From Syntrophus gentianae (lineage in GTDB: Bacteria; Desulfobacterota; Syntrophia; Syntrophales; Syntrophaceae), in assembly GCF_900109885.1 (NCBI RefSeq), contig NZ_FOBS01000016.1, positions 1 through 64,000 on the forward strand: a DNA stretch of 64,000 nt. The letters run 5' to 3'. The notes below the pieces were generated by a model. The model ran no database searches, had not been told where the DNA came from, and saw only the letters and a list, made by a program, of their open reading frames with translations. The position numbers and the translations under genes were made by a program. Below are positions 10,702 to 28,443 of this stretch, one piece after another; within the stretch, counting starts at the first letter, position 1; each line of letters starts with the position of its first letter.

Positions 10702-10755
10702 CCATGGACCCTGTTGTACCGGCGGGGAATGCCGGAATATGTCTTTGAGGTGCCG

Positions 10756-12033
10756 ATGACCATGCACGAGTCGCGATTGCGTATAGCCGTTCTGGGTGCC
10801 GGTGTTGCGGGTATTGTCGCCGCCTATCTGCTTTCCCGAAGGCACGATGTGACGCTCTATGAGAGGAACGATTATATCGGCGGCCACACGAACACGATCG
10901 CCGTTCCCGGCGGCAAAGACGGATCGATCCCGGTGGATACGGGTTTTATCGTCTTCAACGATCGGACCTACCCTCTCTTCAACCGCTTTCTGGATCAGCT
11001 GGGCGTCCGGGCCGGAAAAACGGACATGTCCTTCAGCTACGCCGACCAGCAAAGCTCCCTCTGCTATGCCAGCCGTGATCTGGACAGCCTTTTCGCCCAG
11101 CGGAAGAACCTCTTCCGGCCGTCCTTCTGGCGGTTTGTCGACGGCATGCTGCGCTTCAACCGCATCACTCGAAGCCGCCTCCACGAAGGCGCCCTGTCCC
11201 GCATATCCCTCGGAGAGCATCTGGAACGGGAGGGCTTCGGGGATTCCGTTGCCCGGGCCTTCGTCCTTCCCATGGCCGGAGCCATCTGGTCCGCTCCCGA
11301 CGGCGACATCCGGTCTTTTCCCGCCGAGACCTTTGCCCGTTTCTACGAGAATCACGGCCTCTTGTCGCTTCGGGACCACCCTCAGTGGTATTATGTCGCC
11401 GGGGGCAGTTCAACCTATGTCCGTGCCTTCCTGAAAAGCTTTCCGGGGGGAGTGCATCTCTCCAGTCCCGTCGTCGCCGTTGAAAGGACAGAGGCGGGCA
11501 TTGTCCTGAAGCTGCCCGGCGGCGAAGAGAGGTATGACGGCGCCGTCATTGCCACCCATGCCGATGAGGCCCTGCTCCTCCTGGCCGATCCCTCCGATGA
11601 CGAGGTCCGCCTGCTTTTGCCCTGGAGGTATGCAGCCAATCGAACGATTCTCCATCGCGATACCTCCTTTCTTCCGCCGAACCGGCGCGCCTGGGCGTCC
11701 TGGAACTATATCCGGCCCGCAGGTGGAAAGGAGCGTGATCCAGTTACCCTCACCTATGACATGACGAGATTGCAGCATCTTCCCGCCGACGCCGGGCGGA
11801 TCTGCGTGACCCTAAACCCCTGGAGGGAGATAGCGCCGTCATCGGTCATCCGGAGCTTTGTTTACAGCCACCCCATGTACAGCTTCGATGCCCTGGCCAC
11901 CCAGAGTCAACTTCCGATTCTCAACGGCAGGCGGCATACCTATTTCTGCGGCAGCTATTTCGGTTACGGTTTTCATGAAGACGCGGTCCGCTCCGCCGTG
12001 GAGGTGGCGCGCCAATTCGGCATTGAATTGTAG
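10756..12033 (+). CDS. FAD-dependent oxidoreductase (amine-oxidase fold), CFA-synthase partner
   Basis: A 425-residue flavoprotein. The N-terminal Rossmann motif is VLGAGVAGIVAAYLLSRRHD, followed by the acidic ribose-binding Glu of YERNDYIGGHTNT. Later motifs are VDTGFIVFNDRTYP, YVAGGSSTYV and a C-terminal FAD motif CGSYFGYGFHEDAVRSA. The substrate is unknown; homologues are annotated as NAD/FAD-binding proteins next to DUF1365 and cyclopropane-synthase genes, which points to oxidation or desaturation of lipid acyl chains (inference). The start at 10756 has GAGG five bases upstream; 10714, 10729 and 10762 are alternatives. Only three bases separate it from the fused gene downstream. Confidence 0.87.
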   Translation: MTMHESRLRIAVLGAGVAGIVAAYLLSRRHDVTLYERNDYIGGHTNTIAVPGGKDGSIPVDTGFIVFNDRTYPLFNRFLDQLGVRAGKTDMSFSYADQQSSLCYASRDLDSLFAQRKNLFRPSFWRFVDGMLRFNRITRSRLHEGALSRISLGEHLEREGFGDSVARAFVLPMAGAIWSAPDGDIRSFPAETFARFYENHGLLSLRDHPQWYYVAGGSSTYVRAFLKSFPGGVHLSSPVVAVERTEAGIVLKLPGGEERYDGAVIATHADEALLLLADPSDDEVRLLLPWRYAANRTILHRDTSFLPPNRRAWASWNYIRPAGGKERDPVTLTYDMTRLQHLPADAGRICVTLNPWREIAPSSVIRSFVYSHPMYSFDALATQSQLPILNGRRHTYFCGSYFGYGFHEDAVRSAVEVARQFGIEL

Positions 12034-12036
12034 GCG

Positions 12037-14034: not shown

Positions 14035-14043
14035 AATGCCGGC
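14025..14043. repeat. Hairpin spanning the stop codon of the DUF1365-CFA gene
   Basis: GCCGGCAT (14025-14032), loop GAA, ATGCCGGC (14036-14043). This perfect 8-bp stem contains the TGA stop (14032-14034). No T-run follows, so it is either a transcript 3'-end stabiliser or a REP-like element rather than an intrinsic terminator. Confidence 0.6.
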
Positions 14044-14175
14044 GAGAAGAGGCGAAAAGGGATCAAAGAAGCATATGTCTTGAACTCAAGATTTGTTCAT
14101 CGAAGGCTCAGGGTTGACTCCGAGCATTAGCCGGTCCGTTTTCACGATAAAGGCCATATTTTAGAGGAAAAGGTG

Positions 14176-14640
14176 ATGAAAATATTGTCATTGCTTCTGG
14201 GTTTTTTATTCACTGCTCCTTTCGTCTTACAGACCTATTCCCTGATCCCCTTTTTCGGGCGAAAAAAAGCCCTTTGCATTGTCGGAAGGCAGTTGACATC
14301 GGCCGCGGTTTTAGGGGTGAAACTATTGATTCCACGTATCCATTCAAAACGGGAGTATTCAATTTTCAAGGAGAAGGTAAAAAGGAACTTCCTGTTTATT
14401 GGCAAGCTTTATCATTTAAGGATTGAAAATGAAACGCGGGATAAAATTGAATTTCGGTTCCATTTCTGTCCCGTTGCCAAGATGCTTAAGATCTTTGGAT
14501 TGCCTGATCTATGCAGGTATTCCTGTGCGGGAGATTGGGAGATTGCAAAGGAGAACAAGGAATATTGGACGTTTTCAAGACAAACGACCATCGGAACCGG
14601 GGGGCGGTATTGCAATCATACCTACTCAAGAAAGGAATAA
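14176..14640 (+). CDS. ATC-hydrolase-like protein (L-2-amino-thiazoline-4-carboxylate hydrolase fold)
   Basis: A 154-residue protein with an N-terminal hydrophobic segment (ILSLLLGFLFTAPFVLQTY). The C-terminal half, FHFCPVAKMLKIFGLPDLC, CAGDWEIAKENKEYWTFSRQ and TIGTGGRYCNHTYSRK, has the Cys/Asp pattern of the ATC-hydrolase-like family. Many members outside the cysteine pathway have no known substrate. The ATG at 14176 follows AGGAAAAGG. G+C is clearly lower than in the flanking lipid genes, which suggests a separate origin. It stands alone between the CFA group and the FAS-like cluster. Confidence 0.6.
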   Translation: MKILSLLLGFLFTAPFVLQTYSLIPFFGRKKALCIVGRQLTSAAVLGVKLLIPRIHSKREYSIFKEKVKRNFLFIGKLYHLRIENETRDKIEFRFHFCPVAKMLKIFGLPDLCRYSCAGDWEIAKENKEYWTFSRQTTIGTGGRYCNHTYSRKE

Positions 14641-14846
14641 CCCCTTTCCCTTTCATTCGTCGGGAGGTTTCCAAAACCCTGATTGACAGGAGAAATTTTC
14701 TCAGGTAATCGATCCTTGCATGAGACCAATAGAGGGAGAACGTACTCCCCTTGGGTGAAAATTAAATCAGAATTCCGGAGCGGGTTGTCTCGATAAGAAA
14801 AATTCAAGTGCCGGGCTGCGGATCTAAATTTTTTTAGAGGTTGTAC

Positions 14847-15113
14847 ATGGAGAAATTGATTGGGGAACTGAGGGATAAGATTATTGAAACGTTGAACCTT
14901 ATGGATGTGGCGCCCGAGGACATCCCTCTGGATGATCCGCTGATCGGTACGGAACTGGGGCTCGATTCCATCGATGTGCTGGAGCTTGTCATGATGCTGG
15001 AAAAGGACTACGGCGTCGTCGTGGACAGCAAGGAACTGGGGATGAAAGTGTTTGCCTCCCTGAGGAATCTGGCCCAGTACGTCCAGGAAAACCGCGTGGA
15101 GATGACGGATTGA
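14847..15113 (+). CDS. Acyl carrier protein 1 of the lipid cluster
   Basis: An 88-residue acyl carrier protein with the phosphopantetheine site LGLDSIDVLELV, Ser41 being the attachment residue. It is acidic and four-helix in pattern, with LIGTELGLDS before the site and a C-terminal SLRNLAQYVQ. It would carry the growing acyl chain in the cytoplasm. The start at 14847 follows AGAGG by six bases. The stop overlaps the TTG start of the ketosynthase gene by four bases, so ACP and ketosynthase are probably made in a fixed ratio. It is the first gene of the FAS/PKS-like cluster; the 206-bp gap upstream probably holds the promoter. Confidence 0.9.
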   Translation: MEKLIGELRDKIIETLNLMDVAPEDIPLDDPLIGTELGLDSIDVLELVMMLEKDYGVVVDSKELGMKVFASLRNLAQYVQENRVEMTD

Positions 15114-17275
15114 CCCGGAAGCGGATCTTTGTTACGGGGATGGGCATGATCAGCCCCCTCGGTTCAGATGTGCCGAATACCCTGCAGGCTCTGAGTTTTT
15201 CTAGATCGGGCCTCAAACCGCTCTCCAGGTTTCCGGCTCCCTGTCTTCTGCCCGTCGGTGAGATCCCGGATGGAACACCGCTGGTGGAACCAATTCCCGC
15301 CACGCATCGATACGCCCTGGCTGCGGCCTTCGAGGCGGTCAAGGGCCAGTCCGGACCGCCGGAAAGCGTGATCGTGGGAACCACGACCGGCGGGATGCCG
15401 CTGACGGAAGAAAGGTTGAGGCAGGGAGTGACCGATCCCGCCGCCTACCGTTATCACGCCACCTCATCAATCGCCGAAACAATCGCACAAAAACTCAACT
15501 GCCGGGGACCGGTCTGGACCATTTCCACTGCCTGCTCTTCCGGGGCGGTTGCCCTGGCGCTGGCCCTGGAACTGCTTCGCAATGGCCGATTTCAGCGGGT
15601 TCTGGCCGGCGGCGCCGATGCCCTGTGCCGGTTGACCTATTTTGGCTTTTCCAGCCTTCAAGTTCTCGATCCCCGGGGAGGCCACCCCTTCGACCTTTCC
15701 CGGAAAGGATTGTCCCTGGGGGAAGGGGCGGCGATGCTGTTCCTGGTGGCGGCGGAATGTCCGCCGGAAGGGGCGCTCGTCGAACTGGCGGGAGCGGGAT
15801 TGTCCTGCGATGCCTGGCACCCTTCGTCACCGCAACCGGAGGGGGCCGGCGCCCGGAAAGCCATGGCAAAGGCACTGGATGATGCCGGAATCTCCCCGGC
15901 TGAAGTCGATCACGTCAATCTTCACGGGACAGGGACGCCGGACAATGATTCCGCCGAGGCGTGGGCCCTTAGGAAGCTCTTTAGAGACGGCGTGCCGCCG
16001 ATTGCTTCCGTTAAGGGCGCCTTGGGGCATTCCCTGGCCGCAGCCGGCGCCATGGAAGCGGTGATATCCGCTGCGACAATTTTATCGGGAAGGATCCCTC
16101 CGACGGTTGGGTTTGAAGTGCCTGATCCTGAGTTGAGTCTCTACCCCTCTTCGAATTCCGTCAAGACTGCGGTGAACACCGTCTTGTCCAACTCTTTCGG
16201 CTTTGGCGGGAACAATGCGGCACTGGTCTTTCGCCATCCTGAATTTCCGGGCAGGCATCGGGCAGGTGACAAGGTGTCTTCCTTTTCCATTCTGGGAGAG
16301 GCCTGTCTAACCGGTGTCGGGAATCTTGCCGAAACGCTTTCCGCTCTGGAGGCAGGCAGATCCTGTTCGGGGCAACAGGATACGGCGATGCTTTCCCGAT
16401 CCCTGGATGGCCGGGCCGTCCGCCGTCTCAAGAGGCTGCCGCGCATGGTTCTTTCCCTGGCAAAGGCCGCCTGTCCGGATCGGGTTTCGGGGAACCAGCT
16501 GAGTTCCGTCTTCTTCGGCACGGGATGGGGGCCCCTATCGGAGACCCATGATTTTCTCACCCGGCTTTTCGAATCAGGGGATCGTTTTGCCAGTCCCTTC
16601 GATTTTATCGGTTCCGTTCACAATGCACCGGCGGGACAGGTGGGCATGGAATTTCAGGCCACCGGGCCGAACCTGACGCTGACCGGCGGCGAGGCGGCCT
16701 TTGAGCAGGCCCTGGACAGCGCCGCGCTGCTGGCTCCCGGGGGCGAAGAGACGCTGCTGGTGGTGGGGGCGGATGAATATTCCCCGGCGTGGACGCCCCT
16801 TTTTGATCGCTCGGCGGTTATGGGCCCGCCTTCAGATGGTGGAGGCGCGCTCTGGTTGAAAAAGGCGGCTTCAAATGAGGGATTGAGAATCCTGGCGGTC
16901 TTTTTAGGATCGGGGGAACGGAACGACCGGGTTGTAGAAAATCTGGCGTACTGTCTCGGTGGAGGAAAGGAGTTCTGCCGGCGAATCGGTGCGGTTCTGG
17001 TCGGACTTCCCGCCGCGCAGTACCGGGAAGGTCGGCAACGGCTGACAACGTTCCTCGAACGGACCGGATTTACCGGACCGGTGCTCGATTATCGCAAGGT
17101 GATCGGGGAATTTGCTTCGGCGTCGGCGGTGGCCACGGTTCTGGGCGTGTCTTTTCTCCGGGAAGGGGAGATCCCAGCGGCGCTGAACGATGGTCAAGCC
17201 TTTCCCCTGAATGGTCGGGGGATTCTCGTTCTCGGTCTGGGGAGCGAAGTATCCGCCGTGGAGATTCTGGGCTGA
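15110..17275 (+). CDS. Ketosynthase fused to a chain-length-factor-like ketosynthase domain
   Basis: A 721-residue protein with two thiolase-fold halves. Residues 1-385 are a complete FabF-type ketosynthase: STACSSG with active Cys142, VNLHGTGTPDND with the first His, KGALGHSLAAAGA with Lys/His, and SFGFGGNNA. Residues about 390-721 resemble the ketoacyl-synt_2 domain of aryl-polyene-type clusters (GSVHNAPAGQVGMEF, GPNLTLTGGEAAFEQAL). Its Cys position is replaced by Gly, so this half is probably a non-catalytic chain-length partner. In known systems these are two proteins forming a heterodimer. The start is TTG with GGAG upstream and a four-base overlap with the ACP gene. Confidence 0.86.
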   Translation: MTRKRIFVTGMGMISPLGSDVPNTLQALSFSRSGLKPLSRFPAPCLLPVGEIPDGTPLVEPIPATHRYALAAAFEAVKGQSGPPESVIVGTTTGGMPLTEERLRQGVTDPAAYRYHATSSIAETIAQKLNCRGPVWTISTACSSGAVALALALELLRNGRFQRVLAGGADALCRLTYFGFSSLQVLDPRGGHPFDLSRKGLSLGEGAAMLFLVAAECPPEGALVELAGAGLSCDAWHPSSPQPEGAGARKAMAKALDDAGISPAEVDHVNLHGTGTPDNDSAEAWALRKLFRDGVPPIASVKGALGHSLAAAGAMEAVISAATILSGRIPPTVGFEVPDPELSLYPSSNSVKTAVNTVLSNSFGFGGNNAALVFRHPEFPGRHRAGDKVSSFSILGEACLTGVGNLAETLSALEAGRSCSGQQDTAMLSRSLDGRAVRRLKRLPRMVLSLAKAACPDRVSGNQLSSVFFGTGWGPLSETHDFLTRLFESGDRFASPFDFIGSVHNAPAGQVGMEFQATGPNLTLTGGEAAFEQALDSAALLAPGGEETLLVVGADEYSPAWTPLFDRSAVMGPPSDGGGALWLKKAASNEGLRILAVFLGSGERNDRVVENLAYCLGGGKEFCRRIGAVLVGLPAAQYREGRQRLTTFLERTGFTGPVLDYRKVIGEFASASAVATVLGVSFLREGEIPAALNDGQAFPLNGRGILVLGLGSEVSAVEILG

Positions 17276-17290
17276 TCGGGAAGGACCGGG

Positions 17291-18649
17291 ATGAACGTTT
17301 TATTGATTTCCGCCAATACGATGACCTCGACCTATGCGATCTACCCGCTGGGGCTGGATTATGTGGCCGGGGCGCTGCAGCCGAAGCATCGGGTGCGGAT
17401 CCTGGACCGGAATCTCTATGCAGATCCGGAGACCTTCCGCGAGGCGGTGCGAGAGGCCGCCCCAGAGGTGGTCGGGATATCCATCCGGAACATCGACACC
17501 ACGGATATCTGCCATAGTGGTTCTGCCCTTGACGGATGCCGGGAGGTTCTCCGGTCCGTCCGGTCCGTTTCTTCCGCGCCGGTCGTGCTGGGGGGCTGCG
17601 GATTTACCCTTTTCCCGGCAGAACTGATGAACCGGATGGAGGCCGATTTCGGGATCGTCGGCGAAGGAGAACGGTTCCGTGCCTTTCTCGATGTCCTCGA
17701 AGAGGGCGGGGACGTATCTTCCCTCCCAGGCGTTGTGTTGAAGGGTCAAAGGGTATCCCTGCCGGCACCCTGGCAGGAGGAGGCCTGTCGGGCCTTTGAT
17801 TCAGCAAACGCCCATGTGTCCTTTTACCTGCAGCGGGGAGGAATCCTCAATCTTCAGAGCAAACGGGGCTGCCCCTACGAGTGCATCTACTGCACCTATC
17901 CCGAAATTGAAGGCCGTCGATTCCGGTTCCATGACCCCCTGGCGGTGGCCCGGGAGGCTCGCGCCCTTCAGGACGGCGGGGCGAAGTTTCTCTACTTTAC
18001 GGATTCCGTCTTCAACAGCCATGAAGGCCACAGTCTGGCCGTGGCGAAGGCCCTGATCCGAACCGGCGTTTCCATCCCCTGGGGCGGCTTTTTTGCCCCG
18101 GTTCCTTCCCGGGAGAATTTTTATCGGAACCTTGCCGATGCCGGCCTGACCCATGTGGAATTCGGAACGGAATCCCTCTCTGACCGGATGCTGATGACAT
18201 ACCGGAAGCCCTTCCGGACGGCCGGTGTTTACGGGGCTCACCAGCAGGCCCTTAAGGCAGGCGTGCATGTGGCCCATTTCTTTCTTCTGGGCGGTCCCGG
18301 CGAGAGCGGGGATACCCTGGAGGAGACCCTGGCGGGGGCGGAAAGACTGGAACGGGCCGTGTTCTTTTTTTTCTGCGGCCTGCGAATCTACCCCGGTACG
18401 GCAATTTACGATGTGGCCCTTCGCGAAGGACAGATTGCCCCGGATTCTTCCCTGCTGGAACCGACGTTCTACCAGTCTCCGGAGATCAGCAGTGCGGAAA
18501 TTTACCGGCGGTTGCAGGAAAGGTCAGGGGGGCGTCCATCCTGGGTTGTGGGGTCCGGCGGCGAGAAAACAGGGGAAATTCTCTCCCGTCTCCATGGCCG
18601 GGGACACTCCGGTCCCCTCTGGGAATATCTGATCCCCCGCCGGCGATGA
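17291..18649 (+). CDS. B12-binding radical SAM enzyme of the lipid cluster
   Basis: A 452-residue protein. Residues 1-150 have a cobalamin-binding Rossmann-like domain (MNVLLISANTM, YPLGLDYVAGAL, VVGISIRNID, VVLGGCGFTLFP, FGIVGEGE). It lacks a clear DxHxxG base-off motif. The radical SAM core starts at CPYECIYC (Cys194, Cys198, Cys201), followed by FLYFTDSVFN, VEFGTESLSDRML and LLGGPGES. Enzymes of this layout methylate unactivated carbons or form C-C bonds, and homologues are known in hopanoid and other lipid pathways. Here the probable substrate is the ACP-bound chain (inference). It overlaps the deacetylase start by four bases. Confidence 0.87.
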   Translation: MNVLLISANTMTSTYAIYPLGLDYVAGALQPKHRVRILDRNLYADPETFREAVREAAPEVVGISIRNIDTTDICHSGSALDGCREVLRSVRSVSSAPVVLGGCGFTLFPAELMNRMEADFGIVGEGERFRAFLDVLEEGGDVSSLPGVVLKGQRVSLPAPWQEEACRAFDSANAHVSFYLQRGGILNLQSKRGCPYECIYCTYPEIEGRRFRFHDPLAVAREARALQDGGAKFLYFTDSVFNSHEGHSLAVAKALIRTGVSIPWGGFFAPVPSRENFYRNLADAGLTHVEFGTESLSDRMLMTYRKPFRTAGVYGAHQQALKAGVHVAHFFLLGGPGESGDTLEETLAGAERLERAVFFFFCGLRIYPGTAIYDVALREGQIAPDSSLLEPTFYQSPEISSAEIYRRLQERSGGRPSWVVGSGGEKTGEILSRLHGRGHSGPLWEYLIPRRR

Positions 18650-19461
18650 AGCGATTCTTCCCCCCTCTGAAAACCCCGGCGCTCCGGGCCGGTCTGGCGG
18701 CCCTGTTCTCCGCGGCGGCCCTGTTCCCCATGGAACCCCGCTGGAGCATTCTTCCGCTCCTTCTCTTTGTCCTTTCCTGTCTGATGGCGCCCTTTTTCCC
18801 CCGCTGGGGCTATTTCCTGCCGGTGATCAGCCGGGGACCTTCGAACCGGCGGGGCGTGGCCCTGACCGTTGATGACGGTCCCGATCCGGAAATGACGCCC
18901 CGGCTCCTGGATCTGCTCGGGCAACGGGGGATGAAGGCCACCTTTTTCGTGACGGGCAGGCAGGTTTTGAGGCATCCCGAACTGATCCGGAAGATTCTTG
19001 CGGAAGGCCATACGGTGGGCAATCATTCCTTCAGCCATGATGTCCTGCTGATGCTCCGGTCGTCACGGCGTCTGGCGGAAGAAATCGACCGGCTGCAGGA
19101 GGTCCTCTCTTCTTTCGGTATCCGTCCTCGCGTTTTCCGGCCGCCGGTGGGGATCACCAACCCCCGACTCGGTCCGGTTCTCCGCCGGCGGGGAATGTCC
19201 TGTGTGAATTTCGACTGCCGGGCCTTGGATGCCGGCAACCGCCGGATTAAAGGGATTTCCCGCAAACTTCTAAAAAAAATGCGGCCGGGCAGCATTCTCC
19301 TGATCCATGATTTTCGGCCCTCGGAAAAGACGGACATTCGACAATGGATTACGGAAATCGATGCCCTCCTGGAAGGGATCGCCCGATGTGGATATAAAGT
19401 TGTCCCGCTCCAGGAATTAACCGACATCCCGGTTATGGAAAAAGGCATTCCCGTTGCATAA
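18646..19461 (+). CDS. Polysaccharide-deacetylase (NodB) family protein, membrane-anchored
   Basis: A 271-residue protein with two hydrophobic segments near the N-terminus (about residues 12-28 and 33-47), then a NodB homology domain: VALTVDDGPDPEMTPRLL with the metal/catalytic Asp pair, ATFFVTGRQVL, GHTVGNHSFSHD with the metal His, and FRPPVGITNP. Family members remove N- or O-acetyl groups from sugars and related amides. Its presence inside a fatty-acid-type operon is unexpected. It could deacylate a lipid head group or sugar, or act as a C-N hydrolase on a pathway intermediate; the sequence does not decide. ATGA overlap with the radical SAM gene makes co-translation likely. Confidence 0.87.
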   Translation: MKRFFPPLKTPALRAGLAALFSAAALFPMEPRWSILPLLLFVLSCLMAPFFPRWGYFLPVISRGPSNRRGVALTVDDGPDPEMTPRLLDLLGQRGMKATFFVTGRQVLRHPELIRKILAEGHTVGNHSFSHDVLLMLRSSRRLAEEIDRLQEVLSSFGIRPRVFRPPVGITNPRLGPVLRRRGMSCVNFDCRALDAGNRRIKGISRKLLKKMRPGSILLIHDFRPSEKTDIRQWITEIDALLEGIARCGYKVVPLQELTDIPVMEKGIPVA

Positions 19462-19568
19462 AAAAATTTTGCCTGACTCTTAAAACAGTGATATAGACGA
19501 CAACTTCGATGTAGAAACATGAAGTTTCCAGCTGCAGTCTCGGATCATCGGCCGACAGGAAGAAGAGG

Positions 19569-19943
19569 ATGGAAACCTGGGATATTCCGGCAGACATGAC
19601 TTTTCAGCCGCCGAATGGCGTGATTCTTCAGGCCAGGGCGCCGCAGAATTCGCCATGGTTTGACGGTCACTTTCCCGGACAGCCGATCCTGCCCGGCATT
19701 GCCCTGATTTCTCTGGTAAAAAAAGGCATCCGTTTTTTCGGCGAAAAACAAAAACTGAATTTCCAGCATTTCGGGATTCGCAAAGCAAGGTTCACCCTGC
19801 CCATACGACCGGGCGATGCCTTTGAAATCTCGCTGCTGTGCCGGGTTTCAGAGGGGAAACTGGTTGCTTCCTTCAAGATCCACTTCAAGGGAGAAATGGC
19901 GGGAAACGGCATTGCGGAGGCTTCCTGTGCGTCGGAGTCTTGA
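19569..19943 (+). CDS. FabA/FabZ-type hotdog dehydratase
   Basis: A 124-residue single-hotdog protein with the FabZ/FabA signature WFDGHFPGQPILPGIALI. The His of GHFP is the usual catalytic base. The acidic catalytic residue expected further along the central helix is not obvious (LVKKGIRFFGE), so activity may be altered. It is shorter than FabZ (about 145). It would dehydrate 3-hydroxyacyl-ACP. It follows the deacetylase by 107 bases, which may hold an internal promoter, and precedes the second ACP by 48 bases. Confidence 0.8.
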   Translation: METWDIPADMTFQPPNGVILQARAPQNSPWFDGHFPGQPILPGIALISLVKKGIRFFGEKQKLNFQHFGIRKARFTLPIRPGDAFEISLLCRVSEGKLVASFKIHFKGEMAGNGIAEASCASES

Positions 19944-19991
19944 AGAGCTGGTCGATTTGAAATTTTGTGTTTTTAGGGAGGAAGTTACAAA

Positions 19992-20273
19992 ATGTCGGTA
20001 GATCTGGACATCAATGCGATCATTCGGCGCGTGGCCGAAATTGTCATCTTTGAATTGAAGCTTCAGGAGGTGACGGCGGACACCTTTGATCCGGAGCTGG
20101 ATCTCGTGGACGAACTGGGGATCGACAGCATGGATCTGGCCACGATTGCCCTGGCATTGCAGGATGAGTACGATATCGAAATCGATGAAGACGATTATCC
20201 CGGCTTGAAAACGATCTCCCTCATTGCCCGTTATATTGAAAAAAGGCTGACCGGAAACCCGTCGGCGAACTGA
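19992..20273 (+). CDS. Acyl carrier protein 2 of the lipid cluster
   Basis: A 93-residue acyl carrier protein with site ELGIDSMDLATIAL, Ser46 being the pantetheine residue, and a very acidic third helix region (DEYDIEIDEDDYPGL). It differs clearly from ACP 1, so the two probably serve different steps or partners. The start ATG is 20 bases beyond a GGGAGGAAG Shine-Dalgarno region. It lies 11 bases before the radical SAM gene. Confidence 0.9.
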   Translation: MSVDLDINAIIRRVAEIVIFELKLQEVTADTFDPELDLVDELGIDSMDLATIALALQDEYDIEIDEDDYPGLKTISLIARYIEKRLTGNPSAN

Positions 20274-20284
20274 ATAACCCTTTT

Positions 20285-21388
20285 ATGGATGCCTTGAAAA
20301 CGGACATACAGTCGGCGTTTCGGAACGAGCCGAATTTCCCTCGGGAAAGGAAATGGAAATTCTCCGAACTCCTGGCAGAGCCCCCGGTCCGGGAACGCTG
20401 GGAGAAGGTGCGCAAGTATTTCTTCCTTCGTGAGTCGACCTTTGACATGACCAACCGCTGCAACCTGCGCTGCGACGGCTGTTACTATTATGAAGGGGAA
20501 AAACCCCTTGCGGTCGAAAACCGGGACCCGGAGTCCTGGCGCAAACTCATGCAGGCCGAAAAGGCCCGGGGGATTACCTACGTGGTCCTCGCCGGTGCGG
20601 AGCCGTCGCTGGTTCCGGAACTTATGTCCGTGTGCTACGAAGAAATTCCCCTGGGATGCATTGCCTCCAACGGATTTCTCCCCATTCCCGAAGCGATCGG
20701 CTATAAAATTCATGTTTCCGTCTGGGGAAATGATGACACCAGCGCCCGCGTCCGCCAGGCCGGTGGCCTACTGGAGCGCCAGATAAAAAATTACCGGGGG
20801 GATCCCCGGGCGGTCTTTGTCTACACCTTTACGAAGGAGAATATCGAAGAGGCCTATCCGGTCGTGGATACCCTGGCCTCCTGCGACTGCAGGGTAACCT
20901 TCAACATGTTTTCCGCGCCCGTCGGGTATAAGGGGTCGCTGCGTCACGACAGGGAATCCCTTGACCGCGTCCGTGCCGTCATGAGGGACTTGCTGCTTCG
21001 CCATCCCCGTCATGTGCTCTTTTCCTGTTACAATGCCGTGGCGCACACCCGGGAAGCGAGCCTCCACGATCTGTTTTCTTGCTCCTATCCCCGGCGAAAC
21101 AGGTCAACGGAGATCGGTCTGGGCCGGTCTTTCCGGCAGTACCGGACAGACCTGACCTGGGACCGGGAAGCGGCCTGCTGCGTTCCCGATACGGATTGCG
21201 CGGATTGCCGTCATTATGCCGCGGGAAGCGCCGTGGTGACTGCGCGGCTGTACCGCCATGTCACCGACCCGCTGACCTTCCGGTCCTGGCTGGATTATGT
21301 GGATACCTATCTTGCCGTGTGGGTCATGGGGTACGAAAAAGGGGAAAATCTCTGTAACGAGCTGATTTCGCCCCCCGTAAATTTATAA
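20285..21388 (+). CDS. Radical SAM protein A of the lipid cluster
   Basis: A 367-residue radical SAM protein. The cluster-binding motif is CNLRCDGC (Cys59, Cys63, Cys66) after TFDMTNR, with VVLAGAEPSL taking the place of the GGEP motif. A C-terminal Cys-rich segment AACCVPDTDCADCRHY could bind an auxiliary iron-sulfur cluster, as in SPASM-like enzymes. It has no B12 domain. It is closely paired with the next radical SAM gene (12 bases apart, same architecture), which suggests duplication and perhaps a heterodimer. The start ATG has only a weak Shine-Dalgarno. The reaction is unknown; acyl-chain modification is inferred from context. Confidence 0.85.
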   Translation: MDALKTDIQSAFRNEPNFPRERKWKFSELLAEPPVRERWEKVRKYFFLRESTFDMTNRCNLRCDGCYYYEGEKPLAVENRDPESWRKLMQAEKARGITYVVLAGAEPSLVPELMSVCYEEIPLGCIASNGFLPIPEAIGYKIHVSVWGNDDTSARVRQAGGLLERQIKNYRGDPRAVFVYTFTKENIEEAYPVVDTLASCDCRVTFNMFSAPVGYKGSLRHDRESLDRVRAVMRDLLLRHPRHVLFSCYNAVAHTREASLHDLFSCSYPRRNRSTEIGLGRSFRQYRTDLTWDREAACCVPDTDCADCRHYAAGSAVVTARLYRHVTDPLTFRSWLDYVDTYLAVWVMGYEKGENLCNELISPPVNL

Positions 21389-21400
21389 AATCGAGGATTT

Positions 21401-22399
21401 ATGAAAACCGTAAGTTCCCTGCTGGATGAAGAATGGTATGCGCGATACCGGCGGATCTCCAATCTCAACATCCGCAGTTCCATCTATGACGTGACCAACC
21501 GCTGCAACCTCCGTTGCAAGGGGTGTTTCTTCTTTTCCTCCGGCGAACATGAGGCGGCCCGGGAGGAAGAGGATCTCTCGAAATGGGAAGCCTTTGTGGA
21601 GAGTGAAAAAGAGCGGGGCGTGAATCTGGCGATCCTGATCGGCGGGGAGCCGACCCTCTTTCTCGACCGCATCGAGGCCTTCTATAAAAGGCTGCCGACC
21701 TACTGCGCCACCAACGGTCTCATCCGCGTTCCCCGGGAGCGTTTCCCCGATCTGATGATCGGAATTTCCCTTTGGGGCGATCCGGACGATGAAATCCGCT
21801 TGCGGGGGAAGGACACCTTCGCGATATCCAGCCGGAATTATGAAGGAGACCCCTGGACCTATTACCTCTTCACGATCACCCCCCGGCAGGTGGGCAAGAT
21901 CGAGCCGATGGTCCGGCGCATCCGCGATGTGGGGCTCAAAGTACACATGCAGCTCCTGTCCAATGACGAAGGCGTGGACGGGTTTTCCTGGACGGAGGAA
22001 CAGCTCCGGGAGGTCCGCTTGGAGATGGACGGCGCACTGGATACGTTTCCGGAAACGGTCATCTCATCAAAATATTACCATGAGATCATCACCACGGGGA
22101 AGATGTTCGGCCGTCCCTTCGGCTGGGCGGAATGCCCCTCGGTCACGGAACCCATGGATTCCCGGGACCCCCGCCCCCGGCGGCTGATCCGCTTCATCCG
22201 CTGGGCTTCGGATCTGAAGACCATGCACCGCTGCTGCACCTCGGCGACCCGCGACTGTTCGACCTGCAAGGACGGCGCGGCCCATATGAGCTGGGTGATG
22301 GTCAACAAACGGGAGCATCTGCAAAGCGCGAAGGATCTGCAGAACTGGATTGAAGTTTATGAGATGTTCGCCAAACTCTACCGCTTCATCCCCTGGTAG
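21401..22399 (+). CDS. Radical SAM protein B of the lipid cluster
   Basis: A 332-residue radical SAM protein related to its upstream neighbour: IYDVTNRCNLRCKGCFFF (Cys35, Cys39, Cys42), LAILIGGEPTLFL with a normal GGEP, CATNGLIRVP, and a C-terminal Cys cluster RCCTSATRDCSTCKDGAA. It shares with protein A the segments SR/KNYEGDP-like and ISLWGDPDD/VSVWGNDD, so the two are paralogues. It probably holds a radical SAM [4Fe-4S] cluster plus an auxiliary one. The reaction is not known. A 72-base gap separates it from the ketosynthase that follows. Confidence 0.87.
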   Translation: MKTVSSLLDEEWYARYRRISNLNIRSSIYDVTNRCNLRCKGCFFFSSGEHEAAREEEDLSKWEAFVESEKERGVNLAILIGGEPTLFLDRIEAFYKRLPTYCATNGLIRVPRERFPDLMIGISLWGDPDDEIRLRGKDTFAISSRNYEGDPWTYYLFTITPRQVGKIEPMVRRIRDVGLKVHMQLLSNDEGVDGFSWTEEQLREVRLEMDGALDTFPETVISSKYYHEIITTGKMFGRPFGWAECPSVTEPMDSRDPRPRRLIRFIRWASDLKTMHRCCTSATRDCSTCKDGAAHMSWVMVNKREHLQSAKDLQNWIEVYEMFAKLYRFIPW

Positions 22400-22471
22400 G
22401 CGAATGGGCCTGTCGTTCTCCCCGGCGCGATTGAACAATCCTTCCAAAATTCTGTTTTCCGGGCGGCATTC

Positions 22472-23722
22472 ATGAATCAGGAAAGGCCGGTTATTCTTGG
22501 GTATGACGCGGTTTCACCCCTGGGGGCGGATCTGGAATCCTCATGGCAGCGGGCGCTCCGGGGCGAAAGCGGCATCGGTCCCCTGACTCGCTTCCCCCTG
22601 CGCAGGAACTTTCCCGTTCGCATCGCCGGCCAGGTCGAAGAAATCGGCGAGGCGGCCTTTTCATTCCTTCATCCCCGCGACATGGCGCAATGGACGTCGC
22701 CGATTTTCCGCCATGCCCTCCTGGTCGTCCATCGGGCCCTGGGAAAAAGCGGCCTGGAAATAACTCAAGACATTGCGCCCCGGGTTGCGATCACCTTCAG
22801 CTCGGCCATCGGCGGGCTCGACGCCGTGCTTTCCGCGGATCGCCTTCTCCAGGCCGAAAACAAACTTCCCCATCCTTTCACCAATCCCAACTCCTGCATC
22901 AACATGGTCGGGGGAAAGATCTCCATACTGACCGGGGCAACGGGGCCGATAACGTCCACGATTACCGCCTGCGCCACGGGGGCGACTTCCCTGATCATCG
23001 GCGCCCTTTTCCTCCAGCAGGGCATGGCCGATGTGGTCATCTGCGGAGCGGTCGATTTTCCCCTGGTTGAGCCGATCGTGGCTGGTTTCGCCACGATGAA
23101 CGGGGCGTATCGACCGAAGAGCGGGGAAGGGGAGGAGCCACCGCAGCGGGCCAGCCGTCCCTTTTCTCTCCATCGCCGGGGCTTTGTCGTTGCGGAAGGG
23201 GCCGCCTGCATTGTCCTCGCGACGAAGGCCTTTGCGAAGGCCCATGGATTGCCCTGGTCCCTGGAGATGGCCGGATGGAGCATGACGGCCGATGCCTTTC
23301 ATTTCGTCGCGCCCAATCCGGAAACAGTGCAGCGGTGCGTCGAGGAAAGCATCCGATCCGCCGGTCTTTACCCGGCGGATATCCAGGTGGTCAATGCCCA
23401 TGGGACATCGACCAAAGTGGGAGACAAGGTGGAGGCGGACGTCCTGCGCCGGGTCTTCGGACAAACCCTTCCCCCGATCTCGGCGAACAAATCCCAGCTA
23501 GGCCATGCCATGGGGGCCTCCAGCGCCATCGAAACCGTCCTGGCCCTGGAAGGAATGTTGCGAAATACCGTGCTGCCGACGATCAATTATCTGCCCGACC
23601 CCGACATCCCCCTGGAGTCGATTGCCGACAAGGCCACCTCCGTGCCCCAGGAATTTCTGCTGAAAAACGCCTTCGGCTTCGGCGGCTGCAATTCCTGCAT
23701 CGTTTTCCAGCGAACCGCCTGA
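22472..23722 (+). CDS. Beta-ketoacyl-ACP synthase (FabF type), copy 2
   Basis: A 416-residue ketosynthase with ITACATGATSL (active Cys167), VNAHGTSTKVGDK (His), ANKSQLGHAMGASSA (Lys/His) and NAFGFGGCNSC near the C-terminus. Its length matches FabF. It extends acyl chains by Claisen condensation with malonyl-ACP. It differs from the ketosynthase half of the fused protein and is closer to copy 3 downstream. It is the last gene of the left part of the cluster. A 49-bp piece of its catalytic-His region is duplicated 1,220 bp downstream. Confidence 0.9.
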   Translation: MNQERPVILGYDAVSPLGADLESSWQRALRGESGIGPLTRFPLRRNFPVRIAGQVEEIGEAAFSFLHPRDMAQWTSPIFRHALLVVHRALGKSGLEITQDIAPRVAITFSSAIGGLDAVLSADRLLQAENKLPHPFTNPNSCINMVGGKISILTGATGPITSTITACATGATSLIIGALFLQQGMADVVICGAVDFPLVEPIVAGFATMNGAYRPKSGEGEEPPQRASRPFSLHRRGFVVAEGAACIVLATKAFAKAHGLPWSLEMAGWSMTADAFHFVAPNPETVQRCVEESIRSAGLYPADIQVVNAHGTSTKVGDKVEADVLRRVFGQTLPPISANKSQLGHAMGASSAIETVLALEGMLRNTVLPTINYLPDPDIPLESIADKATSVPQEFLLKNAFGFGGCNSCIVFQRTA

Positions 23723-23843
23723 CATCCAACAGGCCGGCGATCATAAGAAGAAGTCACCCTGACGGAATTCATTTCATTTTTTGCCTAACGAAGGCCTCAT
23801 CGGGAGGCAAGCGTCTTTATTTGCGATCCGGTGAATGCCATGG

Positions 23844-24140
23844 TTATGGCATTATCTCGTCCACAGGCAGTATTTGCTTCCCATGACGAACAGTAAGAAC
23901 AGAAAGCCTCGTTTTTTCGACGCGGTAGATTATACGGTAGTTACCATAGATCAATTCCCTTATACTCTTGATGTCTATTTCGGGAACGACCCTGCCAATT
24001 TCGGGAAACTTCTTCAGCTCTTCCACTTTCTCAAACACCGTATTGACCCAGTTCTCGGCTGCACTGGGATTATCTGCTGCGATGTACTCTGCTATTTCCG
24101 CCACTCTGTCTACCGCCAGAGGTGACCAAAGTATCCTCAT
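23844..24140 (-). CDS. ParE/RelE-superfamily toxin
   Basis: A 98-residue protein with the ParE/RelE pattern: WSPLAVDRVAEIAEYIA at the N-terminus, FPEIGRVVPE, then IRELIYGNYRIIYRVE and VLTVRHGKQILP. Members block gyrase (ParE) or cleave mRNA (RelE), and sequence alone does not settle which. It is translated after its antitoxin with a four-base overlap (ATGA). The pair lies in a lower-G+C segment inside the lipid cluster. Confidence 0.87.
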   Translation of the reverse strand: MRILWSPLAVDRVAEIAEYIAADNPSAAENWVNTVFEKVEELKKFPEIGRVVPEIDIKSIRELIYGNYRIIYRVEKTRLSVLTVRHGKQILPVDEIMP

Positions 24141-24418
24141 TTTCCGATCCGTTTCATTACACGGTTCCGGGCATCTTCATGCTCAATTGCCTGACCTGCT
24201 TCTATCTGGCCTAAGGATGTCTGTATGTCTTGAAGCATTTCAATCTTTTCTTGCATGGCTTCGTACTCGCCTGCATCTAGAAGAACCGCCACACCTTTTC
24301 CGTGCTGCGTAATGATGAGCGGCCGCTTCGTATCGTGTATCTGTTTGAGAAAGGATGCAATGCCCGTCCTGAACTCCGACATAGGGCGGATATCTTCGTT
24401 GATTCTAAGCCTTTTCAT
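24137..24418 (-). CDS. Phd/YefM-type antitoxin
   Basis: A 93-residue antitoxin. The N-terminal Phd/YefM DNA-binding segment has EFRTGIASFLKQI, followed by TKRPLIITQHGKGVAVLLDAGEYEAM, the hallmark of the family, and a C-terminal toxin-neutralising tail. GAGGTGA lies just ahead of the ATG. A perfect 16-bp palindrome 14 bases upstream is the probable operator for autorepression. Confidence 0.9.
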   Translation of the reverse strand: MKRLRINEDIRPMSEFRTGIASFLKQIHDTKRPLIITQHGKGVAVLLDAGEYEAMQEKIEMLQDIQTSLGQIEAGQAIEHEDARNRVMKRIGK

Positions 24419-24431
24419 ATTTCACCTCACA

Positions 24432-24447
24432 TATATTGTACAATATA
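24432..24447. promoter_or_regulatory. Operator-like palindrome of the toxin-antitoxin operon
   Basis: TATATTGTACAATATA is a perfect 16-bp inverted repeat placed 14-29 bases upstream of the antitoxin start. Phd/YefM antitoxins typically bind a palindrome of this kind overlapping their own promoter. The A/T content also suits a -10 region. Confidence 0.72.
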
Positions 24448-24600
24448 ACGTACTTAATATGTGTAGTCAATAGTGCCATTCGAGGCATCCTTTGATCTCG
24501 GCAGGTAGAGGCAAGCCAGATCCTTCACCAAACCAGTAAAATGGGCCAAGATCAAGAGAGTTAAGATCGAACTGTATCCAGATTACACAACCACTCGGTT

Positions 24601-24649
24601 ATCCAGGCGGTCAATGCCCATGGGACATCGACAAAAGTGGGAGACAAGG
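24601..24649 (+). pseudogene. 49-bp duplicated fragment of the ketosynthase gene
   Basis: The 49 bases match 23381-23429 of the copy 2 ketosynthase with two mismatches. The fragment encodes the catalytic-His region (VNAHGTSTKVGDK) in isolation; homology stops abruptly on both sides. It is too short to be a gene and marks a rearrangement between the two ketosynthase genes. Confidence 0.85.
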
Positions 24650-24692
24650 AAGGGGAAAATAGAGAAAATATCAGGACCGGTCGTATCAACAC

Positions 24693-24724
24693 AAAAGCCC
24701 AAAGACTTGCGTCCCTGGGCTTTT
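24693..24724 (-). terminator. Candidate intrinsic terminator of the CTERM-protein gene
   Basis: AAAAGCCCA (24693-24701) pairs with TGGGCTTTT (24716-24724) around a 14-base loop, 24 bases beyond the stop of the leftward CTERM gene. T-runs occur on both strands, so it could work in either direction. Confidence 0.6.
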
Positions 24725-24747
24725 TAGGAATGAATGAAGAAGATGAA

Positions 24748-25365
24748 TTAACTGAGTTTTGATGTAATCCGCCTGCGCATGCCAACCAACCCCACAAGAC
24801 CGGAACCCAGGAGCCAAAAGGCGGCGGGAATCGGAACGGCTGACGCGGTCAAAGTCGTGCTGAGATATGCAGGACTACCGTTGTAGTCGGTTGTCCAAAT
24901 CCATTGAGCGTTCGAAGCGATATCCGAATGGTAACCCCAAGGGCCAACGCCATTATAGCCATAAGTGCTCGCTGCAGTGGATCCTGTTGTCCAGTCCGGG
25001 GAGGTTGTAACCGTCCAATACGTGCCGTCGGTCACAAGTGTCTGGCTTCCGTTTGCAAAGGCGAATCCGCTATCGCTGAGTGTGAAATCCCCGATAAAAC
25101 TTCCGGGACCGCCCCAATTGATTCCATATACGTGCAGATAAAGAGTATTCCCCGCCGTCAGGTTAACGGTTCCCGAATAGGTTGCCCCCCAATTATTGCC
25201 ATACGCTATCTGATCTCCATTAACTGCAGGGCTGGTGCTTATGTACATATAAAACTCATTATCCGCCGTAGCATGGTAGGTAAGGGTTGTTGCCATGCCG
25301 TTGTGGGTAAAACCAAAAAAGAACATTCCTGCTGTCAGGATGAAAAACATAATGATCTTTTTCAT
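24748..25365 (-). CDS. Secreted VPxxP/PEP-CTERM-type protein
   Basis: A 205-residue exported protein. The signal peptide is MKKIIMFFILTAGMFFFGF, followed by a Thr/Ser/Gly/Tyr/Trp-rich body (TLYLHVYGINWGGPGSF, NGSQTLVTDGTYWTV). The C-terminal sorting signal is VPIPAAFWLLGSGLVGLVGMRRR: a Pro-containing motif, a transmembrane helix and a basic tail, recognised by exosortases. The mature protein would be cleaved and released to the surface or exopolysaccharide matrix. The start at 25365 has AGGAGG seven bases upstream. No exosortase is in this window. The base composition is lower in G+C than the surrounding lipid genes. Confidence 0.85.
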   Translation of the reverse strand: MKKIIMFFILTAGMFFFGFTHNGMATTLTYHATADNEFYMYISTSPAVNGDQIAYGNNWGATYSGTVNLTAGNTLYLHVYGINWGGPGSFIGDFTLSDSGFAFANGSQTLVTDGTYWTVTTSPDWTTGSTAASTYGYNGVGPWGYHSDIASNAQWIWTTDYNGSPAYLSTTLTASAVPIPAAFWLLGSGLVGLVGMRRRITSKLS

Positions 25366-25816
25366 AGGCATCCTCCTTCATTCATTTAAATTTTCACTTT
25401 ATTTATATTAATTTAATTCTTTTATTGTTTCAATACAGAGATACCCTGAAATTTATCTAAGTGTTATGCCTAAGAGAAATCGAATCCATGACGTGCTCAT
25501 AAGGATGAGTAAGCGCACTTGCAGGAGGCTGCTCCCTTTACATAAATCCACCCAAAAAGGTGCGAGTTCTGTCGGGAAAAACGAAGCGGTGAGGGAACGG
25601 GGCAGACCATCAAAAAAGATTGCTTTAGCCGTATGAACCGGAAGGATTCTAATTCCAATTTCCTCTCAAAGATGATAGCAAGGCTGGAAAACGAAAGCAA
25701 TCATGGCCACCTGTAGCTGAGGCGATGACGCCGCCAATGGAAAAGGACCCTTTGTTGGGGGTTTTTTTTCGGAAGGCCGGTTCTGCCATTGGTCTAAGTC
25801 AGGAAGTTTCAGGAAT
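25366..25816. other. Intergenic stretch, no gene recognised
   Basis: About 450 bp between the CTERM gene and ketosynthase copy 3. The first 130 bases are strongly AT-rich and probably carry the CTERM promoter. An open frame on the minus strand at 25497-25700 has no family resemblance or Shine-Dalgarno. No repeats or RNA genes seen. Confidence 0.5.
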
Positions 25817-27085
25817 ATGAAAGTTCCGAAAAATCGAAGAGTCTATGTGATCGGTTATGGCGCGGCGACGCCGTTGGGGGCGACGTTTGTGAAGAGCTGG
25901 GAGCGGGCGGTCCGGGGCGAGGCCGGCTTCCGGAAAGTGACCCGCTGCGAGGTCCGGACCCTTTCCGACGTCGTGGGGGAAATTCCCGACTGGGATCCCC
26001 GCGCCCTGGATTTTGTCGATGAAAAGGAGCTTTATAACTGGAACGCCGCCTTTGTGATCCTGACGATGGCCGTCTGCCAGGAAGCCCTCCGCCATGCCGG
26101 ACTGCCCATGGATTCAGGAACGGCGCCGCGGACAGCCTGTCTGGTCGGATCCGCCCTCAACGGCCTTGATGCCTTCCGGATAGCCGTAAACCGGCTGGAG
26201 CAGAAGGGGCCCCGCCATGTCAGTCCCTACCTGCTTCCCAATCTGTGCGCCAATGTTCCGGCGGGGAAGGCCGGCATCCTGTTGGGGTTTACAGGGCCCA
26301 TTTTTTCCCCTCAGGGGGCCTGTGCCTCGGGAAATCACGCCATCGGCCTGGCCGCCCGGATGATCCGTGACGGGGACTGCGATTTTGCCCTGGCGGGAGG
26401 CGTGGAAATGCCCCTTCTTCCCGAAATCATCCTCGGGTTTGCCAACATGACGGCCACGGTCAAGGTGAGCAGCCGGGATCGGGCCTGGCAGAATCCCGCC
26501 CTGGCCTCCCGGCCTTTCAGCATCGACCGGAAAGGGTTTGTCCTGTCGGAAGGGGCCGGGGTGGTGGTTCTTGCCGCGGAGGAAAAACTGGCGACTTATG
26601 GCCTTCGTCCGCGGGCGGAAGTCCTGGGGGTGGGCTGGGCGTCCGATGCCTGGCATTTTACGGAACCCAACCCGGAAACGATTGTCCGGACGATCCGCGA
26701 GGCCATCGAGGATGCGGGCCTCGGGGTGGCGGACATCCAGTATGTCAATGCCCATGGCACTTCGACGCCCAAAGGGGACCGGGTCGAAGTGGAATGCCTG
26801 AAGGAGGTCTTTGGAACGCGGTTGAAAGACATTCCCATCTCCGCCAACAAGTCCCAGATCGGCCATACCCTCGGTGCGGCGGCCGCCATCGATGCCGCCC
26901 TGACGATTGAAGGGATGCAGAGGGGGATTCTTCTGCCGACGATCAATTACCTTCCCGATCCCGAGTTGGAAGCCTATGATTTTGTTCCTCACGAAGCGCG
27001 CCGCCAGCAGGTGGAGCTTGCCCTGTCCAATGCGTTCGGCTTCGGGGGGACAAACTGCTGCCTCATTTTTCGCGGAGTGAGCTGA
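25817..27085 (+). CDS. Beta-ketoacyl-ACP synthase (FabF type), copy 3
   Basis: A 422-residue ketosynthase: SPQGACASGNHAIGL with active Cys169, VNAHGTSTPKGDRVE, ANKSQIGHTLGAAAA and SNAFGFGGTNC. The Cys context (GACASGNHA) differs from standard FabF (TACA-G-hA), hinting at a special substrate. It opens the right part of the lipid cluster, and its TGA is one base from the thioesterase ATG. With the fused enzyme and copy 2, the cluster has three catalytic ketosynthases. Confidence 0.9.
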   Translation: MKVPKNRRVYVIGYGAATPLGATFVKSWERAVRGEAGFRKVTRCEVRTLSDVVGEIPDWDPRALDFVDEKELYNWNAAFVILTMAVCQEALRHAGLPMDSGTAPRTACLVGSALNGLDAFRIAVNRLEQKGPRHVSPYLLPNLCANVPAGKAGILLGFTGPIFSPQGACASGNHAIGLAARMIRDGDCDFALAGGVEMPLLPEIILGFANMTATVKVSSRDRAWQNPALASRPFSIDRKGFVLSEGAGVVVLAAEEKLATYGLRPRAEVLGVGWASDAWHFTEPNPETIVRTIREAIEDAGLGVADIQYVNAHGTSTPKGDRVEVECLKEVFGTRLKDIPISANKSQIGHTLGAAAAIDAALTIEGMQRGILLPTINYLPDPELEAYDFVPHEARRQQVELALSNAFGFGGTNCCLIFRGVS

Positions 27086-27086
27086 A

Positions 27087-27581
27087 ATGCGTCCTTCACC
27101 TTTTCATGGGGAACCTTTCCAGGGAAAGCATCCCGACGGCACGGCGATCTATGTCCGCGATGTCTCCACGGGGCTGGTCTGGCACCGTTGTTCCTATCGG
27201 ACCCTCTATGCCGATACCGACCGTTCCCAGGTGGTTTACCACGCCAATTATCTCCGCTATTTTGAATTCGGCAGGGGGTCCCTGATGCGGGACGCAGCCT
27301 ATCCGTACCGGGAAATCGAGGCGGGCGGCCATGTCTACCCCGTTATTGAAATGGGGGCTGTGTTTTATTCTCCCCTTTTCTACGATGACACCATGTGGAT
27401 CCACACCCGGCCTGCCGCCCTGGAGCGGGTCAAACTTCAGTTTGATTACCTCATCACCCGCAGCGAAACGGAAGAGGTCATCTGTACGGGGTTCACCCGC
27501 CACTGCGCCCTGAACGGTTGCGGGATTCCCGTGAAGATTGATTCCAAAACCGTCCAGCTCTGGAATTCCTTTCCCAGATAG
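27087..27581 (+). CDS. Acyl-CoA/ACP thioesterase, hotdog fold (YbgC/FadM type)
   Basis: A 164-residue hotdog protein. The 4HBT signature is YRTLYADTDRSQVVYHANYLRYFE, where Asp in YADTD is the usual catalytic residue, followed by FGRGSLMRDA and VIEMGAVFYSPLFYDD. It would hydrolyse an acyl thioester and so release the chain made by the cluster, or act as an editing enzyme. An N-terminal extension of about 30 residues precedes the domain. The genes on both sides are within five bases, so one operon is very likely. Confidence 0.85.
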   Translation: MRPSPFHGEPFQGKHPDGTAIYVRDVSTGLVWHRCSYRTLYADTDRSQVVYHANYLRYFEFGRGSLMRDAAYPYREIEAGGHVYPVIEMGAVFYSPLFYDDTMWIHTRPAALERVKLQFDYLITRSETEEVICTGFTRHCALNGCGIPVKIDSKTVQLWNSFPR

Positions 27582-27585
27582 TGTC

Positions 27586-28443
27586 ATGGTGTCTTTTCCC
27601 CTGGAAATTCCCCTCTTTCCTTCCATGCGGGACCATGCCTTTGATGGCAAGGTCATGTTTTCCGCCGCTGAGCTGCTCTCCCTGACCGCGGTGCAGGTTG
27701 CTTTAAATTTTCCCGCTCTGAAGAACATCGAGCAGGTCGAAGCCCTTTTCTCCCGCTTTCTGCTCCTGCCGCCGGAAGAACGCAAGGCCCTACCCGTTCT
27801 AATGGAGGTGGAGATGCAGACCGAGGGAGGAATTACGGCCAGATTGCTGTCCAGATTCCAGTCCCGGAGCGGGGCCATTTCCCGTCTGCGGGAACATTTC
27901 CGGGTGCGGTTTCAAAAAGGAAACCCGACGGATCTTTCACCTCCTGCCTTTGACCAGGCGTCGGAGTTGGCGGGCGAAATTCTCGACATTCCCGCGGAGA
28001 GAATTTACGAAGAGCTGATCCCCTTCGGGCCGTCCTACCGGAATATCCGGGGGCCTCTCCGGCTGAATTCTCAGGGGGCGGTGGCCCTGCTGGCAGTCGA
28101 TAATCATTCCTTTCCCGATCCTTATCCCGATTGGTTTCCTGGAGTTCCGCTGATAGCCGATGCCGCCTTTCAGGCCGCCTGCATCTGGGGGCAGCGTTAC
28201 GCGGGCCGAGTGGTTTTCCCCGTCGGCTTCCGCCGGCGTTGTTTCCGGAAGGATCTCCAGTCGGAGGGGTCTTATCTCTGCAGGGTGTATCCCGTGGATA
28301 CGACGGGGGACATGCTGGTCTTCGATCTCTGGATCTACGAACGAGGCGGAATTCTCTGTGAGGCCATTTTAGGCCTGCAGATGAAGGACGTGACTGCCGG
28401 GCGGATCAAGCCGCCCCTCTGGGTGCAGGACGGGGCATCATGA
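27586..28443 (+). CDS. Polyketide-synthase-type double-hotdog dehydratase
   Basis: A 285-residue protein resembling the dehydratase domain of modular polyketide synthases. The N-terminal hotdog has RDHAFDGKVMFSAAELLSL, whose His matches the catalytic His of the H-F-G motif; the C-terminal hotdog has PLIADAAFQAACIWGQR, with the Asp at the catalytic position, and YEELIPFGPSYRNI. It would remove water from a 3-hydroxyacyl-ACP, giving the cluster a second dehydratase besides the small hotdog protein. The start at 27586 lies just past the thioesterase stop; the longer frame from 27538 overlaps it. It overlaps the acyltransferase gene by four bases. Confidence 0.83.
   Translation: MVSFPLEIPLFPSMRDHAFDGKVMFSAAELLSLTAVQVALNFPALKNIEQVEALFSRFLLLPPEERKALPVLMEVEMQTEGGITARLLSRFQSRSGAISRLREHFRVRFQKGNPTDLSPPAFDQASELAGEILDIPAERIYEELIPFGPSYRNIRGPLRLNSQGAVALLAVDNHSFPDPYPDWFPGVPLIADAAFQAACIWGQRYAGRVVFPVGFRRRCFRKDLQSEGSYLCRVYPVDTTGDMLVFDLWIYERGGILCEAILGLQMKDVTAGRIKPPLWVQDGAS

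Follow-up and report, generated by a model that had tools for sequence, protein, structure and literature searches.

Two intact FabF-like beta-ketoacyl synthase genes, KS1 and KS2, lie on the forward strand of the window, the 64,000-nucleotide stretch of Syntrophus gentianae DNA analysed here. By inspection, the Cys-His-His motifs of both proteins are intact. The original prediction had placed a toxin-antitoxin pair and a CTERM protein between the two genes on the minus strand, and all of these are found there, together with an attC site, two gene fragments that we term scraps, and half of a MITE-like repeat (Table 1).

The interrupted operon belongs to a FASII cluster of the ladderane-like or polyunsaturated-hydrocarbon type, which occupies window positions 10714-28443. 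The cluster genes encode a B12-radical SAM protein (TIGR04072), two further radical SAM proteins, an ACP, dehydratases and several ketosynthases, along with an amine oxidase and a cyclopropane-synthase-like fusion. Similar clusters of Kuenenia and Desulfotalea share with it the several FabF-like ketosynthases and the ACP, as well as the radical SAM and B12-radical SAM enzymes (TIGR04072) and the amine oxidase (PMC2649909). This likeness provides only the context of the finding.

Table 1. Features of the KS1-KS2 interval and its flanks, in window coordinates.
Feature	Position	Strand	Evidence or remark
KS1, FabF-like beta-ketoacyl synthase, intact, left flank	22472..23722	+	Pfam PF00109/PF02801, TIGR03150; ortholog adjoins KS2 in relatives
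Repeat copy 1	23381..23429	+	within KS1, catalytic-His loop
Low-G+C stretch, 60 bp, between KS1 stop and attC	23723..23782		
attC site (predicted), R'' CATAAC ... GTTAGGC R', overlaps toxin stop	23783..23850	-	covariance model, covariation, recurrence
ParE/RelE-superfamily toxin	23844..24140	-	PF05016 7e-21, TIGR02385
Phd/YefM antitoxin	24137..24418	-	PF02604 5e-20, TIGR01552
Promoter-like site of toxin-antitoxin operon, TTGACT-17-TATATT	24442..24470	-	
Gene X scrap, ~33 codons, cut at both ends	24499..24598	-	tblastn E 3e-7; alignment
KS scrap, second repeat copy, 52 bp, cut at both ends	24598..24649	+	abuts gene X scrap
Terminator-like inverted repeat just downstream of PEP-CTERM gene	~24690-24730		seen by eye
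PEP-CTERM (VPLPA-type) surface protein, 207 aa	24748..25371	-	TIGR03370 7e-8
Half MITE-like repeat (whole copies ~130 bp, inverted ends)	25645..25690		same place relative to KS2 as in G002
KS2, FabF-like beta-ketoacyl synthase, intact, right flank	25817..27085	+	

The gap between KS1 and KS2 measures 2,094 bp in this genome (23723-25816). The uninterrupted join of the two genes in relatives, which the original prediction had named as the mark of an insertion, is indeed the usual arrangement. Specifically, of the 81 distinct loci from relatives that hold both ketosynthase genes, 76 have a direct join or a short spacer of at most 305 bp, with a median of 19 bp over all 81 loci, and the spacer is 176 bp in the same-genus genome G002. 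The island of lower G+C that had been proposed for the interval is also present, with a value of 0.465 across the gap versus 0.62 in the flanking ketosynthase genes; only 3% of equal-length windows within the 64 kb have a G+C content as low.

The right edge of the insert can be set near position 25,644, because the half MITE-like repeat (about 35-46 bp) is almost equally far from KS2 here (about 167 bp upstream) and in G002 (about 162 bp), where it directly follows the KS1 stop codon. Members of this MITE-like family, about 130 bp long with inverted ends (ATTCCAATTTCAGATCAAAGATGATAGCAAGGCGGCAAGG...), are scattered in the genome (L006, L134, L135 and L137). The comparisons show that KS1 and KS2 were ancestrally neighbours in one operon, with a short spacer carrying the half MITE-like repeat, and that about 1.9 kb entered between the KS1 stop codon and this half repeat; among the lineages compared, only this one has the addition.

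An insertion is therefore strongly supported by the relatives' joins and the low G+C, and in this respect the earlier proposal of foreign DNA placed into a once-continuous operon stands. The notion of a single foreign piece does not, because the insert is a mosaic. In order from KS1 to KS2, it consists of the attC site and the toxin-antitoxin cassette to which it belongs, a scrap of about 100 bp from within a gene that we call gene X, a KS1-like scrap and the PEP-CTERM gene.

The KS1-like scrap had first drawn attention as a second copy of 23381-23429 at 24601-24649, offset by 1,220 bp with 47 of 49 bases identical. This description proved accurate, as did the abrupt loss of homology at both sides of the repeat, seen on inspection of the sequence, and the assignment of the duplicated stretch to the first catalytic-His loop of the ketosynthase, where it codes for IQ(V/A)VNAHGTSTKVGDK. 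A repeat search extends the match to 51 of 54 positions (94% over 54 nt; 23376-23429 versus 24596-24649) at the same spacing. When KS1 is compared with the 2.09-kb interval, the best ungapped 49-mer match is 47, versus 27-31 of 49 for 12 shuffles of the interval, which argues against chance similarity. The genome is a draft of 71 contigs, which would leave room for an assembly artefact, but the site is internal to an 82-kb contig, and simple duplication during assembly is unlikely because the two copies differ. Both chance and artefact can be set aside with near certainty.

The KS copies are distinguished by three nucleotide mismatches (A/T, T/C and C/A). These differences are not adenine-specific and there is no reverse transcriptase among the insert genes, and a diversity-generating retroelement was rejected on these grounds. 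Similarly, the copies were rejected as att-type direct repeats of a site-specific integrative element, because excision between them would delete the 3′ end of KS1, and the second copy is not followed by a KS1 3′ end. A chimeric KS1 with an imported 3′ half is not supported either, in that identity to G002 declines gradually from about 0.85 to 0.70 with no step at the repeat. No known RNA family scores above its gathering score in the region.

The base at position 23388 bears on the source of the scrap. KS1 has a T there, in a valine codon, whereas the scrap has a C, as do 78 of 85 distinct ortholog sequences. Because the scrap carries the orthologs' base and KS1 a derived one, the scrap is evidently not a copy of present-day KS1, an argument that rests on this one clear site; at position 23413 the orthologs are mixed, and at position 23379 none of them has the base of the scrap. 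The source would then be a KS1-like gene other than the present KS1, or KS1 itself before its change. Elsewhere in the genome there is a 233-bp KS1-like 3′ end (C3:500-732; L009, G000) that is 86% identical, with an IS21-like end on one side of it and a truncated transposase on the other. Among its 32 differences, 23 fall at third codon positions, which points to an extended period of evolution as a functional gene before its truncation. By its sequence, this remnant establishes that a second KS1-like gene once existed in this genome, although the remnant and the scrap region do not overlap. The scrap itself is most likely without function. One minus-strand unit ends on one side of it and the promoter that starts the next lies on the other, and thus no obvious transcript is expected; antisense regulation by the scrap was considered and left as unlikely, since its position predicts no such transcript.

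The toxin and antitoxin genes form one minus-strand operon, and homologous toxin-antitoxin pairs have a similar promoter region upstream. Directly after the toxin stop codon comes the sequence GCCATAACCATGGCATTCACCGGATCGC...GCCTCCCGATGAGGCCTTCGTTAGGC (23850-23783), which we predict to be an attC site. Such sites are characterized by an R'' box RYYYAAC, an R' box GTTRRRY, a length of 57-141 bp and extrahelical bases (PMC12901181). In the window site, the R' box GTTAGGC matches GTTRRRY exactly, the R'' box is GCCATAAC, with one base extra relative to the consensus complement, and the inner stem has two mismatched positions that break two pairs. As is usual for attC, folding is more stable for the bottom strand than for the top strand (-12.9 versus -11.0 kcal/mol). 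The site scores 74.5 bits with covariance model R1, in whose training set it is included. In the alignment of seven sites, pairing is kept in 88% of cells, versus at most 49% when the structure is slid, and two-sided changes are seen; the structure was written from these same seven sequences, which favours it somewhat.

The same motif recurs after unrelated ORFs in G142 (on two contigs) and G055, in one case with the next gene following. Attenuated attC forms come after homologs of the window toxin in several genomes, and in G067, G075 and G102 an attC-like end also lies upstream of a homologous toxin-antitoxin pair. As expected for cassette arrays, the model finds series of attC sites on the same strand (G106:C15, with ten sites; G013:C11; G055:C77), and array sites such as those of G106:C15 had been left out of model building.

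Because the toxin-antitoxin pair ends in an attC site, it is a predicted integron gene cassette that lies outside any integron, and this is what is new at the locus. We call it a truncated cassette because the 5′ core site TTRRRY, which is present at homologous pairs elsewhere, is not recognizable upstream of the antitoxin, where the gene X scrap is fused. Toxin-antitoxin cassettes of integrons have their own promoters, and the V. cholerae superintegron includes 19 of them (PMC11023631). Like such cassettes of chromosomal integrons (PMC11023631), the window unit is a type II pair with its own promoter and an attC site directly after it, and its homologs lie between attC sites in related genomes. 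Unlike them, it is solitary, resides in a lipid operon and has a 5′ core that is lost or unrecognizable. Solitary attC sites are known (PMC9024848), and the unit shares with single-attC CALIN elements (IntegronFinder 2.0, PMC9024848) and with attG insertions the presence of an attC-bearing cassette outside an integron. The window insert differs from these in that it also contains non-cassette DNA, and its insertion route is a proposal only. The KS1-KS2 junction was rejected as a recurrent cassette hotspot: the other five of the 81 loci have gaps of 508-4,258 bp that contain unrelated DNA, and none of these five gaps has an attC match.

No functional intI adjoins the window cassette. The integron integrase gene of this genome is broken, being spread over three frames with one stop, and is located on contig C2 (C2:44576-45529; L184 8577-9530). 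Two attC-like sites lie 1.1 and 2.5 kb upstream of it on the other strand, and together they represent a decayed chromosomal integron. Scattered attC-like sites occur also on C18, C6, C38 and C46. Judged by eye, the sites of C2, C18 and C46 represent a different attC sequence type (ATCGT...CCCT...GGGCCACTCC) from that of the window site, whose nearest counterparts are the sites of G142 and G055. This difference suggests that the window cassette probably came from the integron of another lineage.

The gene X scrap matches a hypothetical protein of ~180 aa from proteobacterial plasmids, over residues ~88-121, and no second copy of the gene was found, either in this genome or in the rest of the order's genomes. 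At their joint the gene X and KS scraps share CGG (24596-24598), which is compatible with microhomology joining, though such sharing often arises by chance. A search of the genome for a Ku gene was negative, and Ku-based end joining was rejected for this reason. At the far side of the KS scrap, the PEP-CTERM protein carries a VPLPA-type sorting signal at its C-terminus. Over 137 bp, the 3′ end of its gene and the bases past the stop codon match a second site of this genome with 83% identity, and shorter matches to this 3′ end exist elsewhere in the genome and in the same-genus genome G001; this part of the mosaic may be of resident rather than foreign origin.

Taken as a whole, the locus is best explained, with good confidence, as two neighbouring genes split by a mosaic of a gene cassette and illegitimately joined scraps. 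The toxin-antitoxin pair would have arrived as an integron gene cassette. Its placement outside an integron could have been accomplished by an integron integrase acting at a non-canonical attG-type site, an activity for which PMC11023631 cites Loot et al. (2024) and which PMC12901181 also describes. Alternatively, ordinary transfer of the cassette might have been followed by decay. The unrecognizable TTRRRY core leaves a clean integrase event without support at the 5′ end of the cassette. The two scraps would have been joined by illegitimate, microhomology-type recombination that operates without Ku, and the order of the insertion events is one that we infer.

Junctions in bacterial DNA can contain short illegitimate patches, or filler DNA, as is known from short-patch double illegitimate recombination in Acinetobacter baylyi. 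The present case shares with those events the joining of very short ectopic pieces with little or no homology. It differs in that only an old scar between unrelated units is available here, and the mechanism proposed for it is putative.

Other origins of the KS scrap must be weighed against this account. Polymerase template switching during repair or replication could have put 52 bp of the resident KS1 at a site 1.2 kb away, as the shared strand, the short distance and the 3-bp CGG identity at the left junction would suggest. Such a templated insertion is nevertheless rather unlikely, because the scrap retains the ancestral base at the position where KS1 has changed, such that copying must predate that change, and because nothing in the genome could have served as template for the adjoining gene X scrap. 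The original prediction had also raised a third ketosynthase, which might have been a tandem duplicate of KS1, or a KS1-like gene acquired by a single crossover, that subsequent insertions and deletions eroded to 49 bp. The second KS1-like gene whose remnant persists on C3 and the ancestral base in the scrap both agree with this possibility, as does a weak likeness (8 of 12 by eye) between 25636-25647 and the end of the C3 copy. However, the insert has no other recognizable ketosynthase sequence, the scrap adjoins the cut gene X rather than ketosynthase flanks, and none of the 81 relatives' loci has three such tandem ketosynthase genes here; we consider this origin unlikely.

A further alternative is a single integrase event, in which a cassette array comprising gene X and the toxin-antitoxin pair was inserted while recombination at G|AT in KS1 carried the KS fragment along. 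There is an attC site at one end, the KS scrap begins beside a GAT in KS1 (23378-23380), and attG-type secondary sites are on record in the sources noted above. Still, GAT is a common triplet, the edges of the scrap have neither an attC nor a core site, and the integrase of this genome is broken, all of which make a single integrase event highly improbable. It is also a speculative thought, and very unlikely to be correct, that the scraps are traces of a Ku-less anaerobe capturing pieces of 50-100 bp, at least one of them foreign, together with an orphan cassette in one repair event. If it were true, heaps of this kind could quite generally mark the places where cassettes have landed outside integrons.

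The kinds of element in this mosaic scar are all known and its novelty is modest; its value is its well-resolved anatomy. The orphan cassette and the other pieces leave a base-by-base record of the opening of a conserved lipid-synthesis operon in a single lineage, while dozens of relatives provide the intact operon for comparison. The locus also offers what appears to be a clear case from nature of a toxin-antitoxin cassette located away from any integron; its host is a syntrophic bacterium with a decayed integron of its own. In addition, it illustrates that a short ectopic repeat can retain an older state of its source gene.

Two Spirochaetes bins carry other large KS1-KS2 insertions (L104 7240-9854 and L119 7240-11506), which have no attC and contain long ORFs, one of them metallophosphatase-like by eye. 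Within the S. gentianae genome, further solitary attC-like sites are found at L216 2393-2459 and at L220 1585-1651, the latter followed by a HicB-like ORF, and these are possibly more orphan cassettes. At L217 2181-2245, an attC-like site is followed by a methyltransferase ORF that resembles the ORF beside the G067 toxin-antitoxin pair (L193 6973-7758), and the same methyltransferase cassette may have travelled to both places.
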